Source of the DNA: a virus | IMG/VR virus record: IMGVR_UViG_3300013014_000035 | Location: 1 to 57,866 of that record | DNA length: 57,866 nucleotides | Strand: one strand, 5' to 3' | Shown: positions 4,381-10,740 of the stretch, one piece after another | How the letters are laid out: each line of letters starts with the position of its first letter | Position numbering within the stretch: the stretch's first letter is position 1 | Made by a program: the position numbers and the translations under genes | The notes under the pieces: model-generated | Told to the model about the DNA's origin: nothing | Seen by the model: only the letters and a program-made list of their open reading frames with translations | The model's database searches: none

Positions 4381-4631
4381 ATGAATGCAAAGATTGTGAT
4401 CGGATGGACTGCCGTGCACGGGGCTGTATTGCACCTTGCTCTGATTTGGATTACAATAGCGTTTTAAAAGATCGCCTTTATCGGATTTCAGGCATGCCTA
4501 CCCGTACTACCTGGACTAGTGGTCCTATGCCACAGTCCATGGGTTGTATTTGTCCACCTACTAGTGAACAGACGTGTATGAATCCTCTGTGCCCTAGGAA
4601 GCCTATTGGTAAAGCTAATGATGTCACCTGA
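4377..4631 (+). CDS. Cysteine-rich small protein, probable zinc binder
   Basis: This 84-residue protein contains ten cysteines in two clusters: C-x2-C-x4-C-x4-C-x3-C near the N-terminus and C-x-C-x7-C-x5-C near the C-terminus. The spacing suggests two small zinc-binding units. The central part is Pro/Thr/Met-rich. It overlaps its upstream neighbour by four bases (ATGA) and its downstream neighbour by 14. Function unknown; phage zinc-ribbon proteins often contact nucleic acid or host polymerase, which is only a possibility here. Confidence 0.65.
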   Translation: MNECKDCDRMDCRARGCIAPCSDLDYNSVLKDRLYRISGMPTRTTWTSGPMPQSMGCICPPTSEQTCMNPLCPRKPIGKANDVT

Positions 4632-4875: not shown

Positions 4876-4904
4876 TTGACATTGACCAGGTTTTTTGGTA
4901 TAAT
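4876..4904 (+). promoter_or_regulatory. Sigma-70 early promoter P9
   Basis: TTGACA (4876-4881), 17 bp, TATAAT (4899-4904). TTAAC at 4851 is 25 bp upstream of the -35, followed by the usual TTGTAATAA. Confidence 0.92.
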
Positions 4905-5670: not shown

Positions 5671-5715
5671 AACCCGGTTTTGTTAACTTAATTGTTGACA
5701 GGTGCCGGGTTTTTT
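5671..5715 (+). terminator. Terminator hairpin that contains the next promoter's -35 box
   Basis: AACCCGG (5671-5677) pairs with CCGGGTT (5705-5711). Inside it GTTAAC (5682-5687) pairs with GTTGAC (5694-5699), allowing one G-U. A T-run (5710-5715) follows. The -35 of promoter P10 (5695-5700) forms part of the inner stem. Confidence 0.75.
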
Positions 5716-5723
5716 GTTATAAT
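5695..5723 (+). promoter_or_regulatory. Sigma-70 early promoter P10
   Basis: TTGACA (5695-5700), 17 bp, TATAAT (5718-5723). It drives the first EDL array and overlaps the terminator at 5671-5715. Confidence 0.92.
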
Positions 5724-5745: not shown

Positions 5746-5931
5746 ATGCGTAATATTACAACTATTCGTTCTGTACCAAATGATACAGCTAATGATCTAG
5801 TGTGGAAAGAAGCGCGCGGGAAAGGTGTCCATTGCGTGATAAACGCTCGGAATGAGTTGGGTTATCAAGTTACAATAGATATCAGAGAACCTATATTGGA
5901 TCAATTTGCAGAAGATTTAGATGATGTCTGA
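5746..5931 (+). CDS. EDL-array protein 1
   Basis: This 61-residue protein is the first of a tandem family. It has a variable N-terminal two-thirds and ends R-E-P-I-L-D-Q-F-A-E-D-L-D-D-V. The closing motif (D-Q-x-x-E-D-L-x-x-V) recurs in the following genes. The final codons GATGATGTCTGA contain the start codon(s) of the next gene. It is translated from a GGAGA site after P10. The family is not one I recognise; size and acidity would fit host-factor-binding early proteins, but function is unknown. Confidence 0.75.
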   Translation: MRNITTIRSVPNDTANDLVWKEARGKGVHCVINARNELGYQVTIDIREPILDQFAEDLDDV

Positions 5932-6109
5932 AGTTACTATGTTGATGATAGATTCAATTCATCATTCACTCGATACGTATCTTGATGCATTATCCGAGGA
6001 AGTACTTGTAGGTGTGACTCTAGGTCCTGTTAGTGATCAAATTGCACTTCAATTACGATATAACCTTCATGATCAGATATATGAGGATCTAGATGTCAAT
6101 TATAAATGA
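5921..6109 (+). CDS. EDL-array protein 2
   Basis: This 62-residue protein starts within the last codons of protein 1 (ATG 5921 or 5924; the second matches the M-S-E start of other members). It ends H-D-Q-I-Y-E-D-L-D-V-N-Y-K, so the motif is followed by a few extra residues because the reading frame continues 17 bases into the next gene. The N-terminal part is hydrophobic and acidic without recognised motifs. Confidence 0.72.
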   Translation: MMSEVTMLMIDSIHHSLDTYLDALSEEVLVGVTLGPVSDQIALQLRYNLHDQIYEDLDVNYK

Positions 6110-6278
6110 AATTAGGCTTCAAGTCAGAATTCAAGCCGGTCATAAGCTCCATGAACCCGAAAGTATTTCTTTAGAGATTTGGGGTGAAGCATATGTTATT
6201 CAGGAAGATGCTGTGCATTTACTTATTATGAATCGTATAATTGCAGATCAGATAGATGAAGATCTAGAAGATGTCTGA
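6093..6278 (+). CDS. EDL-array protein 3
   Basis: This 61-residue member ends I-A-D-Q-I-D-E-D-L-E-D-V. It starts at ATG 6093 inside the preceding gene, with the ribosome site GAGGATCT formed by the codons of that gene's E-D-L. Its own E-D-L codons again serve the next gene. No other motif is recognised. Confidence 0.72.
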   Translation: MSIINEIRLQVRIQAGHKLHEPESISLEIWGEAYVIQEDAVHLLIMNRIIADQIDEDLEDV

Positions 6279-6462
6279 AACTAAAATTCCAATTTATTAT
6301 GGTCCATATAATAAGGTTCGGAGTCAAATAAGACCTCTAATAGATAGTAATATATGGTATACGATTTATCTTGCGACTCATCATAATATTTTTCAAATTT
6401 CAGATATACAAGTTAGAGAACCAGTTAAAGATCAAATGGAAGAGGATCTAGATCTTGTCTAA
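6271..6462 (+). CDS. EDL-array protein 4
   Basis: This 63-residue member begins ATGTCTGA, an eight-base overlap with the upstream stop. It ends V-R-E-P-V-K-D-Q-M-E-E-D-L-D-L-V, closely matching the end of protein 1 (R-E-P...D-Q). The body is Tyr/Ile-rich. Its last codons replace the usual GATGTC with CTTGTC, so the next gene must use TTG. Confidence 0.72.
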   Translation: MSETKIPIYYGPYNKVRSQIRPLIDSNIWYTIYLATHHNIFQISDIQVREPVKDQMEEDLDLV

Positions 6463-6649
6463 GAATATACGATATATAATAAAAAGCCAGTGTGCAGAAG
6501 AAGCCTCGGGTAGAACATGGGATACTACAGATGATGGTACCATGCGCCATATAGCATTAAATATACGTATGGATCTGAATGGTCGTATTCATAGACCGGT
6601 AATGGATAATGTGTTTATACAAGTGGATGAGGATTTACGAGATGTCTAG
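6455..6649 (+). CDS. EDL-array protein 5 (TTG start)
   Basis: This 64-residue member appears to start at TTG 6455, at exactly the place where other members have ATG. The next in-frame ATG would remove nearly half the protein. A GAGGATCT ribosome site precedes it. It ends F-I-Q-V-D-E-D-L-R-D-V and overlaps the next ATG (GATGTCTAG). A weaker start may lower its level relative to its neighbours. Confidence 0.68.
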   Translation: MSKNIRYIIKSQCAEEASGRTWDTTDDGTMRHIALNIRMDLNGRIHRPVMDNVFIQVDEDLRDV

Positions 6650-6836
6650 AATTGTTGAACGGATACACACTGATGTATCAAATGCCGTCTGGAAACAAAC
6701 GGCAATGTCGATGATTGGCTTGGAAGTTCGTAATAAATTTTGGCTTGAACATTTTGTTGTAATTGAAGTTGAAGCTAGAATTGAAGATTATATGGTCAGT
6801 CAAGTTTATGAGGATTTGGAAAATGATGAATACTGA
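6642..6836 (+). CDS. EDL-array protein 6
   Basis: This 64-residue member starts at ATG 6642 in the ATGTCTAG overlap. Its interior contains D-V-S-N-A-V-W-K-Q and E-V-R-N-K-F, which resemble protein 9 (D-V-S-D-A-I-W-H-K...G-I-R-S-Y-V). It ends Y-M-V-S-Q-V-Y-E-D-L-E-N-D-E-Y. The GAGGA of its E-D codons precedes the ATG pair of the next gene at the correct spacing. Confidence 0.72.
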   Translation: MSRIVERIHTDVSNAVWKQTAMSMIGLEVRNKFWLEHFVVIEVEARIEDYMVSQVYEDLENDEY

Positions 6837-7053
6837 TGCTATTTGGTTAACATTAGGTGAATGTGGTTGGTATCATAAGACTTTTAATATAGTATATTCT
6901 TATACTGATGTTTTAACGCTCAGAGATATTCTACAGCAAGAAGCAAGAGAAGAAGGTGTTATGCTGAGATGTGAAATTTATACTGGTGGTATGTTTACAT
7001 CCGATACTAATATCACGATGTATGTTTGGTTGGTTCATAAACCATGGTTGTGA
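6823..7053 (+). CDS. MNTD-family protein within the EDL array
   Basis: This 76-residue protein (75 if ATG 6826 is used) does not carry the E-D-L ending. Its N-terminus, M-N-T-D-x-I-W-x-x-L-x-x-x-G, and the segment ending E-E-G-V-M-L-R match the protein at 71-295. It is inserted in frame-overlap style between EDL members 6 and 8. Function unknown. Confidence 0.7.
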   Translation: MMNTDAIWLTLGECGWYHKTFNIVYSYTDVLTLRDILQQEAREEGVMLRCEIYTGGMFTSDTNITMYVWLVHKPWL

Positions 7054-7208
7054 ATAAAATTCAAAACATGCGACATATTGACATAACTGAAATTTCTCCT
7101 TATGTACAATTTGCAGTCGGTGATAAATTGTTGCACGAATTTTTGCTTGTTTTGGTCCCATTAAAAGTACAAATAAAAGAAGATCTAAAAAATGTACAAA
7201 ATGACTGA
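7044..7208 (+). CDS. EDL-array protein 8
   Basis: This 54-residue member is easily missed because it is short. It starts at ATG 7044, overlapping the upstream stop by ten bases; ATG 7068 is an alternative. It ends P-L-K-V-Q-I-K-E-D-L-K-N-V-Q-N-D, with the family motif. The codons for E-D-L (GAAGATCTA) lie just upstream of the next ATG at 7192. Confidence 0.65.
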   Translation: MVVNKIQNMRHIDITEISPYVQFAVGDKLLHEFLLVLVPLKVQIKEDLKNVQND

Positions 7209-7389
7209 AACAGTGCGTAATATTATGGCGGATGATGTATCAGATGCTATTTGGCATAAAACTCATAATATGTTTGCTGTTGGTATTCGAAGTTATGTGA
7301 TTCGTCATGTTGAACCAGCATTCATAGATGACATTTATACGTTACTCGATGAACAAATCAAGGAAAATCTAAATTATGAAGATTATTGA
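7192..7389 (+). CDS. EDL-array protein 9
   Basis: This 65-residue member starts at ATG 7192 (7201 is possible) and ends D-E-Q-I-K-E-N-L-N-Y-E-D-Y, with Asn replacing Asp in the motif. The internal D-D-V-S-D-A-I-W resembles protein 6 and the second-array protein at 10208 (D-D-V-E-D-A-I-K), so these three form a closer subgroup. Confidence 0.7.
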   Translation: MYKMTETVRNIMADDVSDAIWHKTHNMFAVGIRSYVIRHVEPAFIDDIYTLLDEQIKENLNYEDY

Positions 7390-7555
7390 TGTACTTTTGA
7401 GTCATGTATTGTATGATTCTATGCGCGAATCACATAAATCTGTTAGAAAAAACGTTCGATTTATGACATATGCTAGGTTGCAAATGCCAATTTATGATAG
7501 ATTGTCCAATATAAGCTTAGAAAATCAGATTGCAGAAGATATTAACGAAAATTAA
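7376..7555 (+). CDS. EDL-array protein 10
   Basis: This 59-residue frame starts at ATG 7376 inside the previous gene and ends L-E-N-Q-I-A-E-D-I-N-E-N. It is the last member of the first array, and no overlapping gene follows, yet the Q-x-x-E-D pattern is kept. That argues the motif has a protein role besides housing a ribosome site. Its TAA is part of a TTAAC box upstream of the next promoter. The body is Arg/Ser-rich and more basic than the other members. Confidence 0.65.
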   Translation: MKIIDVLLSHVLYDSMRESHKSVRKNVRFMTYARLQMPIYDRLSNISLENQIAEDINEN

Positions 7556-8044: not shown

Positions 8045-8455
8045 ATGCAACTCCCCACCGAAGGTTCAGTCGTAGAGATTATATTGGACAATGCTGCAGC
8101 ACGTTATGCTATGGCTCCGTGTTCAGTGCATAGGGCACAACCTACATTGACTCTTCGTGGGGTTGTTGTACCCACTCCTAAGTGGATGACTTCTGTTGCC
8201 GATCTTACTATTCTAAATAGTGAGACCAAAGGCTTTAATTATATCCCTAGACACAAGATCTTGACTATTGGTGGTGTTACGGTAAAACAACCGAAGGTCA
8301 CTGCAGACAAGGTCTTAAATATGACTTCATCTAAAACTGGCGAAGTCTATACTGTGCGACAAGATGGTCGTACTAAACGTTGGTCGTGCACTTGTATTGG
8401 ATTTCAATTCCATAAGAAGTGCCGACATGTAACAAAAGCTATGGAGAATAAATAA
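8045..8455 (+). CDS. Small protein with C-terminal SWIM-type zinc finger
   Basis: This 136-residue protein ends with a likely SWIM zinc finger: W-S-C-T-C-x-G-F-x-F-x-x-K-C-R-H-V, that is C-x-C-x(n)-C-x-H. SWIM fingers bind DNA or protein partners. The N-terminal 80 residues look like a small beta-rich domain, and a basic stretch (T-V-R-Q-D-G-R-T-K-R) precedes the finger. It is co-transcribed with the 8455 gene (TAATG overlap). A nucleic-acid-binding or regulatory role is likely but not specified. Confidence 0.75.
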   Translation: MQLPTEGSVVEIILDNAAARYAMAPCSVHRAQPTLTLRGVVVPTPKWMTSVADLTILNSETKGFNYIPRHKILTIGGVTVKQPKVTADKVLNMTSSKTGEVYTVRQDGRTKRWSCTCIGFQFHKKCRHVTKAMENK

Positions 8456-8774: not shown

Positions 8775-9137
8775 ATGAAGATTATGCGTAACATGGCTGC
8801 TCAGGGTGACTTCATTATCCTGCGTATTCAGAATATCCCCGAGGGTGTTGTTCCTGTTGCTCCTGAGAATGGCAAGGTAATTGTCGCTCACAGTGAAACT
8901 GGGCACAATCACGTGATGGAAGCAACTCGAGTCGAGGCATTCGAAGTTCCTGCTGATAAGTCCAACTCTCAGAATGTTGACTTGTACAAGATGTTCCTTC
9001 TTGTCAAGGAAGACACTCAGATTGACCATCTTCGGTCTTTCGATACTCACGAGGCTATTATGGTACCGCCCGGTATGTATGAGGTTCGCCGTCAACGCGA
9101 ATATACCGCCGAAGGTTTCCGTAAGGCGGCTGACTGA
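8775..9137 (+). CDS. Conserved phage/plasmid protein of unknown function
   Basis: This 120-residue protein is beta-rich, with H-S-E-T-G-H-N-H-V at residues 39-47 and P-P-G-M-Y-E-V-R-R-Q-R-E-Y near the C-terminus. I recognise this combination from phage and plasmid proteins often found near DUF932 genes. The His-rich loop could bind metal (cupin-like), but that is only a guess. Codon use is strongly biased (CTG, AAG, GTT, ACT), and the gene has a strong AAGGAGA site and a leader hairpin, so it is probably highly expressed. Confidence 0.78.
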   Translation: MKIMRNMAAQGDFIILRIQNIPEGVVPVAPENGKVIVAHSETGHNHVMEATRVEAFEVPADKSNSQNVDLYKMFLLVKEDTQIDHLRSFDTHEAIMVPPGMYEVRRQREYTAEGFRKAAD

Positions 9138-9196: not shown

Positions 9197-10063
9197 GTGA
9201 TTACTAGTTTGAATGAAGACCAACTGGCGCAAATTCCCGTGTATCGGGACCGCTGGTTGGAAATCGGTCTTCGTACTGAAGTTCTTGACTTTGCTGCAGC
9301 TAAGACTGCTCTTGCAAAGTGCTACACCTCCCGTGATCTTGAATCACCTTCTAATGTTTATTATGCTACTGGACCTATGGATGCCTACAAGATCTATAAG
9401 TCAGTAAAGCCTGGCGGTACTTCTACCGAATTCATGAACTCTATGATCTATGGCGCTCATGATAGTTCTTGGTTGAGTTTCTATGCTTACTTTAAGGAAG
9501 TCTGTGGTCTGGATCTGGAGATTGTCCAGCCACTGATTGAATATGCCCAAGTTGCTTGCTGGACTTATGTCGACAAGGACTTTGCTATTATTCAAGAGTT
9601 CCCGATGTATATCCGATTCGATGATCAGAATCGTCTGCATTGTGAAGATGGTCCTGCCATTGAATATCAAGATGGTACCATGGTGTTTGCATGGCATGGT
9701 GTTCGTCTGAGCCGTGACAAGTGGTTCTGGATCACCAATAAGCAAGAGTTGTCTGCTAAGGCAGCCCTGAAGGAAGACAACTTGGAACTCCGCCGAGTTG
9801 CCTGTGAAATTCTTGGTTGGGTCCATATTCTTAAGGAACTGAAGTCTAAGGTTATTGATCAGGATGAAGATCCGCAGATTGGTACTCTTCTGCAGGTGAA
9901 TATTCCTGATATCGGTAAGGAACAGTTCCTGCGTGTTGTTTGTGGTACTGGTCGTGAGTTTGCTATTCCGGTGCCGCCTACTGTCAAGACCGCGTTGGAA
10001 GCAAATGCTTGGACCTATGGTGTTGATCCCGAGGTGCTTCGAGACTTGGAATTCCGTACTTAG
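9197..10063 (+). CDS. DUF6745-like protein
   Basis: This 288-residue protein contains R-L-H-C-E-D-G-P-A-I-E-Y-x-D-G-T...W-H-G-V (about residues 148-170), the hallmark of DUF6745-type proteins in phages and plasmids. Function is unknown. The start is GTG 9197: the overlapping ATG at 9195 is followed at once by a stop, while AAAGGTG lies upstream. A helical N-terminal half includes S-W-L-S-F-Y-A-Y-F. It is probably co-transcribed with the 8775 gene and ends before a clear terminator. Codon use is biased like that of its neighbours. Confidence 0.78.
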   Translation: MITSLNEDQLAQIPVYRDRWLEIGLRTEVLDFAAAKTALAKCYTSRDLESPSNVYYATGPMDAYKIYKSVKPGGTSTEFMNSMIYGAHDSSWLSFYAYFKEVCGLDLEIVQPLIEYAQVACWTYVDKDFAIIQEFPMYIRFDDQNRLHCEDGPAIEYQDGTMVFAWHGVRLSRDKWFWITNKQELSAKAALKEDNLELRRVACEILGWVHILKELKSKVIDQDEDPQIGTLLQVNIPDIGKEQFLRVVCGTGREFAIPVPPTVKTALEANAWTYGVDPEVLRDLEFRT

Positions 10064-10137: not shown

Positions 10138-10166
10138 TTGACAGTGATATATGGTTGTGTTATAAT
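10138..10166 (+). promoter_or_regulatory. Sigma-70 promoter P14
   Basis: TTGACA (10138-10143), 17 bp, TATAAT (10161-10166). It drives the second EDL array and has no TTAAC box; a terminator occupies that position. Confidence 0.9.
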
Positions 10167-10207: not shown

Positions 10208-10405
10208 ATGTATAGTAAAATGTATAGTCAAACTATAGTTGATATAATGGATGATGTTGAAGATGCTATTAAGACAAAGGTTAGGAAACAAGTAGCATAT
10301 CATAACTTTATGGAAGTTTTTGAACTTAGACATATTGGTCAGATACTCGATTGCGAGTTCCATATTAGAGAACAATTTATGGATGATGTAGAAAATGAAA
10401 GTTAA
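10208..10405 (+). CDS. EDL-array 2, protein 1
   Basis: This 65-residue protein follows AAAGGAA. It contains D-D-V-E-D-A-I, like members 6 and 9 of the first array, and ends H-I-R-E-Q-F-M-D-D-V-E-N-E-S, a variant of the family motif with D-D-V. Its last codons contain the ATG of the next gene (10395). Confidence 0.72.
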   Translation: MYSKMYSQTIVDIMDDVEDAIKTKVRKQVAYHNFMEVFELRHIGQILDCEFHIREQFMDDVENES

Positions 10406-10559
10406 AGATATTATCTTTCCACTATCGACATGGAATATTAGAATTATTGCTGACAATCAAATCAAAAGTCAAGTTTACGACCATAATAAAGTATTATATG
10501 ATCTTATGTTGTATGTTCCACATATTCATGAACAACTCAGAGACGATTTAGATGATTAG
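10395..10559 (+). CDS. EDL-array 2, protein 2
   Basis: This 54-residue frame starts at ATG 10395, overlapping the upstream gene by 11 bases, and ends H-I-H-E-Q-L-R-D-D-L-D-D. It has the same length and overlap habit as the first array. The GATGATTAG end supplies the ATG of the next member. Confidence 0.68.
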   Translation: MKVKDIIFPLSTWNIRIIADNQIKSQVYDHNKVLYDLMLYVPHIHEQLRDDLDD

Positions 10560-10740
10560 TTTATTCGTCTATCATCTTTATTCAAGAAAAGAATGTGAAT
10601 CTAAAACTAATAACGAAGTAAAATATCTTATTTCTGAAAAAGTAAGAAACGGACTTCTTGATCTGGAAATGTATTCCAAAATAAGACGTGCAGCTTGGAT
10701 GGAAGTTAACCATCAATTCATAGACGATCTCAAAGATTAA
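10552..10740 (+). CDS. EDL-array 2, protein 3
   Basis: This 62-residue member starts at ATG 10552 in the upstream stop region and ends V-N-H-Q-F-I-D-D-L-K-D. It is the last in its array and still carries the motif. The body is Lys/Glu-rich and probably helical. A TTAAC follows the stop, 35 bp before the next -35 box. Confidence 0.68.
   Translation: MISLFVYHLYSRKECESKTNNEVKYLISEKVRNGLLDLEMYSKIRRAAWMEVNHQFIDDLKD

Follow-up and report, generated by a model that had tools for sequence, protein, structure and literature searches.

The window analysed here, meaning the whole stretch of 57,866 nucleotides, is a 57.9-kb virus contig (IMG/VR record IMGVR_UViG_3300013014_000035) with T4-type tail and baseplate genes. 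It also carries two tRNAs, and an Rfam search of the window returned tRNAs only. As read from the list of open reading frames and the sequence, array 1 (5746-7555) consists of nine member genes for proteins of 54-65 residues plus one unrelated gene for 75 residues (the MNTD gene), and array 2 (10208-10740) consists of three further member genes. Successive array genes overlap by 8-17 nt. The arrays of overlapping mini-genes described in an earlier note on this DNA are therefore real, and their coordinates are collected in Table 1.

Table 1. Array genes, promoters and associated genes in the window.
Feature	Position	Strand	Remarks
Sigma-70 type promoter, 5' of array 1	5695..5723	+	perfect TTGACA-17-TATAAT, TG-extended
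Array member 1	5746..5931	+	61 aa; tail DQFAEDLDDV
Array member 2	5921..6109	+	62 aa; SDQI ALQL RYNL HDQI YEDL
Array member 3	6093..6278	+	61 aa
Array member 4	6271..6462	+	63 aa
Array member 5	6455..6649	+	64 aa; TTG start
Array member 6	6642..6836	+	64 aa
MNTD gene, outside the array family	6826..7053	+	75 aa
Array member 7	7044..7208	+	54 aa
Array member 8	7192..7389	+	65 aa; EPAF IDDI YTLL DEQI KENL
Array member 9, last of array 1	7376..7555	+	59 aa
Companion gene, phrog_27831	8775..9137	+	120 aa; directly upstream of DUF6745
DUF6745 protein, repeat-less form	9197..10063	+	288 aa; between both arrays; PF20530 E 5.4e-28
Sigma-70 type promoter, 5' of array 2	10138..10166	+	perfect TTGACA-17-TATAAT with TG
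Array 2 member 1	10208..10405	+	65 aa; 145 nt 3' of the DUF6745 gene
Array 2 member 2	10395..10559	+	54 aa
Array 2 member 3, last of array 2	10552..10740	+	62 aa

The strong promoter that had been claimed for the arrays is present in consensus form 5' of both. Between positions 4500 and 11000 there are six perfect (12/12) TG-extended sigma-70 promoters (at 4876, 5695, 7567, 7991, 10138 and 10782). Six in 6 kb is far above expectation, which suggests an early region. The DUF6745 protein encoded between the arrays scores 98.1 bits against PF20530 (cut-off 27); the phage family of DUF6745 proteins is phrog_31813. Its upstream neighbour, the phrog_27831 companion with a QGD...GHxH motif, is also encoded in locus L207 (2875-3243). 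In 39 of 98 testable loci, one of them in a Gastranaerophilales genome, a companion homologue lies 5' of DUF6745, and this protein is likely part of a DUF6745 module. Another gene between the arrays, at 8045-8455, encodes 136 residues with a SWIM zinc finger, whose match to PF04434 is just above the cut-off.

Every one of the 12 array members ends with Q-[IVMLF]-x-[ED]-[DN]-[LIV]. As a regular expression this tail matched 85 open reading frames in a first set of loci, against about 12 expected from the internal frequency of the motif, and most of the matches fall within overlapping small-gene clusters. Comparison of the window with five relatives gave a dN/dS of 0.47 for the bodies, 0.18 for the six tail codons and 0.08 for neighbouring genes (0.03-0.08 for DUF6745). 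This contrast of body and tail across relatives, which the earlier note had proposed to measure, bears out its view of a single family with a constant tail and variable bodies: the tail is constrained and the bodies evolve fast. Purifying selection on both parts argues that the frames are translated. Within the clade, no homologue was seen that keeps the DNA overlap and has lost the protein motif.

The close relatives L031 and L032 carry overlapping arrays of plain x-x-Q-V repeats ending in QVxDDLRW. These canonical arrays flank DUF6745 and have the same stop/start overlap as in the window. A search with one canonical protein of this type reached 37 viral loci, and a repeat pattern search gave at least 600 matches. 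Among canonical small arrays, 58 neighbouring gene pairs overlap by 4 nt, and the median distance from DUF6745 is 38 nt (within 2 kb in 37 of 40). Each canonical array has common ends of its own, such as MKLKSV...TIHR, MKSV...WDDIQ or MTSQNKV...NDLTK, and loci L025 and L035 mix canonical with degenerate members.

Searches of the array proteins against Pfam, PHROGs and NCBIfam found nothing significant, and neither blastn with the array DNA nor tblastn with member 6 found a match among annotated phages. A canonical QV protein scanned against genome contigs gave no confirmed hit. Several Pfam matches of the QV proteins (DUF4816, TBPIP/Hop2, YpjP, Trigger_C and others) were below cut-off and were rejected as composition effects; the YpjP match in L093 is just above cut-off but falls on the repeats and was rejected likewise. 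No paper was found that contains DUF6745 or the repeat strings, although a string search is a weak test of novelty. In the literature, Pfam and NCBIfam, the earlier remark that no described family of this kind was known thus stands.

The earlier note had also stated that the first two-thirds of the proteins differ strongly. The bodies do evolve fast, but they are not unrelated, since a cryptic four-residue pattern runs through them. Pairs of hydrophobic residues are in excess at lag 4 (z 5.9) and at lag 8 (z 3.6); lags 3, 5 and 7 are not raised (lag-5 z -2.0). The register is anchored on the tail (p 2e-4), so that member 1, read back from its tail, becomes GYQV TIDI REPI LDQF AEDL. Its orthologues read GYQV SNQV REPL LDQF AEDL, and relatives of member 6 end in EDQV LNQV YEDL. 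In an hhalign comparison the window family matched the canonical QV proteins in register with a probability of 94.9 (E 4e-8), over the C-terminal 18 columns only. With a matrix of the canonical repeats, the correct register is the one in which the window bodies score highest (combined p 0.003); only five of the 12 proteins are individually significant, and two score worse than shuffled sequence. The window proteins have one to three Q-hydrophobic pairs each, mostly near the C-terminus, and lack the Q-V pairs repeated through the body that define the canonical family. They are therefore better called a diverged form than canonical members. Taken as a family with its gene module, the window array is very likely a diverged branch of the widespread [xxQV]n arrays.

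DUF6745 proteins themselves often hold the same kind of repeat. Many contain a [xxQV/L]n stretch like that of the canonical arrays, and the window's own copy sits between its two arrays. Internal xxQ[VL] repeats occur in DUF6745 proteins of L090, L093, the Mycobacterium prophage prophiGD102-1 and five bacterial genomes (L204-L208, in Pseudonocardia, Gluconacetobacter, Sphingobium, Gastranaerophilales and Arthrobacter). They enter the protein at a single place, between the N-terminal segment and the YGxHEAxWLSFY block. The contigs compared are metagenomic fragments, and their loci were reached through a neighbouring DUF932 gene or by QV or DUF6745 queries, so that the following frequencies are not population estimates. 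Among 94 loci, each from a different contig as far as could be told, DUF6745 has internal repeats (in cis) in 44, and in none of these 44 were small repeat genes present. It has no internal repeats in the other 50, where 40 have canonical small arrays (in trans) and 8 form the window clade with its EDL-tailed arrays; the trans label of this clade leans partly on the equivalence argued above, and the exclusion holds without it. In the remaining two (L029 and L048) no array was found in the DNA examined. A tree of the repeat-free DUF6745 domain, built by a quick method with SH-aLRT support only, requires 7 changes of layout by parsimony, and its well-supported branches alone demand at least 5. 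In this tree the window clade falls together with L031/L032 (support 80). By the established Rosetta-stone principle, mutually exclusive cis and trans layouts with repeated switching between them are a classic sign of proteins acting together. By this reasoning, the separate repeat proteins should act together with DUF6745.

The canonical repeats have a peculiar pattern of variation. Within one genome, two residues vary per unit and there is nearly no synonymous variety; repeats of the cis loci have a median pN of 0.15 and pS of 0.014. Single Q and V codons are used throughout in L193, L157 and L145, the first residue of the unit being W, R, G, E or V, and L145 has 6 distinct 12-mers across 29 units. 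Between genomes the fixed codons differ (GTC, GTT, GTA or GTG; CAA or CAG) and Q-V stays; Q-V is therefore held as protein. In the targets of diversity-generating retroelements, variation is specific to adenines and comes from a template repeat and a reverse transcriptase, whereas the adenines of the CAA/CAG codons are invariant in the canonical repeats. In L100, L101, L108, L115 and L118 the DUF6745 domains are identical, yet some of the repeat genes differ. In our reading, recent duplication of units together with selection for variety at exposed positions explains the pattern; a targeted mutational process may lie behind the variety. As a separate observation, the 12-bp repeats of L193, L157, L145, L126, L088 and other loci vary within a genome at amino-acid-changing positions only and draw on few unit types.

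Taken together, the small overlapping genes probably encode the tetrapeptide-repeat arm of DUF6745 in trans and in diverged form, as a set of interchangeable helical arms. Many phages and some bacteria hold the [x-x-Q-V/L]n stretch inside one DUF6745 polypeptide; elsewhere, as in the window, DUF6745 lacks it and the repeats are carried by proteins of 50-90 residues from overlapping arrays alongside. Each small protein may then be a helical arm docked on the DUF6745 core where the internal arm would otherwise sit, its tail end being the most constrained contact. An array would offer a large choice of arms, expressed from strong promoters early in infection, and the variable arm faces could contact varied partners, such as host or competitor molecules. 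Physical assembly of array proteins with DUF6745 is reasonably likely, and a role against host or rival molecules is put forward only tentatively. AlphaFold2 predicts the cis DUF6745 protein of L161 (39-row alignment) as a two-part domain with pLDDT above 90 and its repeats as one 93-residue helix at low confidence (pLDDT 50-70), and window member 2 as a two-helix hairpin (pLDDT 86). Foldseek found no match in the PDB for the DUF6745 model or the hairpin. The low pLDDT of the repeat helix, the two repeat-less loci with no array and the window proteins that fall short of significance against the repeat matrix speak against the arm reading. We also considered a residue code, a reading that we think rather unlikely: each four-residue unit would take its two variable residues from a short list (in L145, for example, {G,W,R} x {D,A}), the units would be shuffled along the helix with synonymous sites fixed, and phages would maintain, within DUF6745 or as separate genes, a repertoire of coded arms presented by the DUF6745 core against changing partners. 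The window array would then be an old repertoire whose units have specialised beyond the code.

Two alternatives place selection on DNA or RNA. The tail codons of most members extend over the start of the following gene (GAGGATCTAGATGTC etc.), and the tail might accordingly be a translation-coupling sequence, its codons carrying the Shine-Dalgarno sequence and start of the next gene and the peptide being a by-product. This is largely refuted, as synonymous change is not suppressed in the tail (dS 0.34, against 0.27 in the bodies) and amino-acid change is reduced (dN 0.06 against 0.13). Moreover, the array-final members at 7376 and 10552 still carry the motif, and no following gene overlaps them. 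The tail is therefore conserved for its protein sequence, beyond any use as a start signal. It is equally hard to believe that the repeats are selected as DNA, for example as 12-bp recombination or protein-binding sites, with the frames incidental. Third positions and the Q and V codons are indeed near-invariant within a genome, all 64 units of L193 reading CAA GTT, but it is the codons that change from genome to genome and the Q-V that persists. In addition, the repeats lie in frame inside conserved DUF6745 proteins, and in the diverged window members the period of the amino acids has outlived the DNA repeat.

The other alternatives accept the proteins and differ about their partner. The array proteins could be independent small early effectors with a docking tail and many host targets, DUF6745 being a mere neighbour. 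Phages commonly carry small early effector genes, and the consensus promoters, high gene turnover and fast bodies would suit such a set; independent genes would not be expected to adjoin DUF6745 (37 of 40 trans loci) or to be strictly absent where the repeats are internal, and we consider this reading improbable. The related proposal of the earlier note, adaptors with one docking tail and many targets, is partly supported, by the constrained tail and fast bodies. It did not foresee that the bodies are related through a four-residue repeat, that the family is a diverged branch of the [xxQV]n arrays or that DUF6745 is the likely common partner. The tail varies between canonical arrays (DDLRW, DDIQ, NDLTK, TIHR), and a helix end or a contact specific to each partner would account for this better than a universal tag for docking to the host. 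Somewhat less improbable, though still doubtful, is that the period-4 helix is a self-assembling coiled-coil in which array proteins bundle together, with DUF6745 as a cap or chaperone rather than the core. A V every 4 residues would give a continuous hydrophobic stripe, and the predicted hairpin of member 2 is vaguely Rop-like (not significant); on the other hand, many cis proteins have a single repeat copy per chain.

Some known systems resemble parts of this arrangement. One is gene 38 of the Mycobacterium phage prophiGD102-1 (MW584211.1), which encodes a DUF6745 protein holding some 46 tandem xxQL units; unlike the window, its repeats lie within one 481-aa protein and there is no array. 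Pentapeptide-repeat proteins also combine a short period with fixed and variable positions, but they form a beta-helix of period 5, whereas the window family has period 4 and is predicted to be helical; an identity with them was rejected, given the lag-5 value above and no Pfam match. In the internal proteins of phage T4 the common element is N-terminal and cleaved. In the window family it is C-terminal and the N-termini differ, and T4-type internal head proteins were rejected as an identity. Those proteins (IPI etc.) are phage-encoded and have a capsid targeting sequence in common, with varied bodies (PMC3012670). Type I restriction S subunits contain 12-bp tandem units encoding 4-residue central repeats of varying copy number (PMC3077401). 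Such repeats are a fixed spacer between two DNA-recognition domains, where copy number matters and not residue variety, and, unlike the window family, they have another sequence and no separate array genes. The split layout of DUF6745 and separate repeat-protein arrays is absent from the papers and family models searched; judged against these libraries and this literature, it had not been found before. Apparently unrelated mini-genes would thereby be tied to a widespread, undescribed protein module, with DUF6745 named as a testable partner. Repeated switching between internal and separate arms, together with the nonsynonymous-only variety of the repeats, points to a modular recognition device in phages, and the split-arm reading would also account for many short hypothetical proteins in phage genomes.

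Array genes are conserved in the related contigs L005-L013, with gains and losses. Member 3 is absent from L007, L008, L009 and L010, and in L007, L008 and L009 member 2 continues directly into member 5. In L013 the body of member 3 is joined to the tail of member 4, followed by member 5. These junctions mark the tail as the site where deletions join. No orthologue of member 4 was found in the five clade loci compared. The slot of the MNTD gene is occupied in L013 (2883-3029) by a different small, hydrophobic, membrane-like protein, so the arrays carry exchangeable cargo. Extra tail-bearing members, which the window lacks, lie upstream or at the start of array 1 in L013 (563-745), L007 (476-646), L009 (3871-4041) and L010 (4943-5104), with tails such as LMEDLCNVS, QVVEDICDED and QIQEDLEDAS among them.
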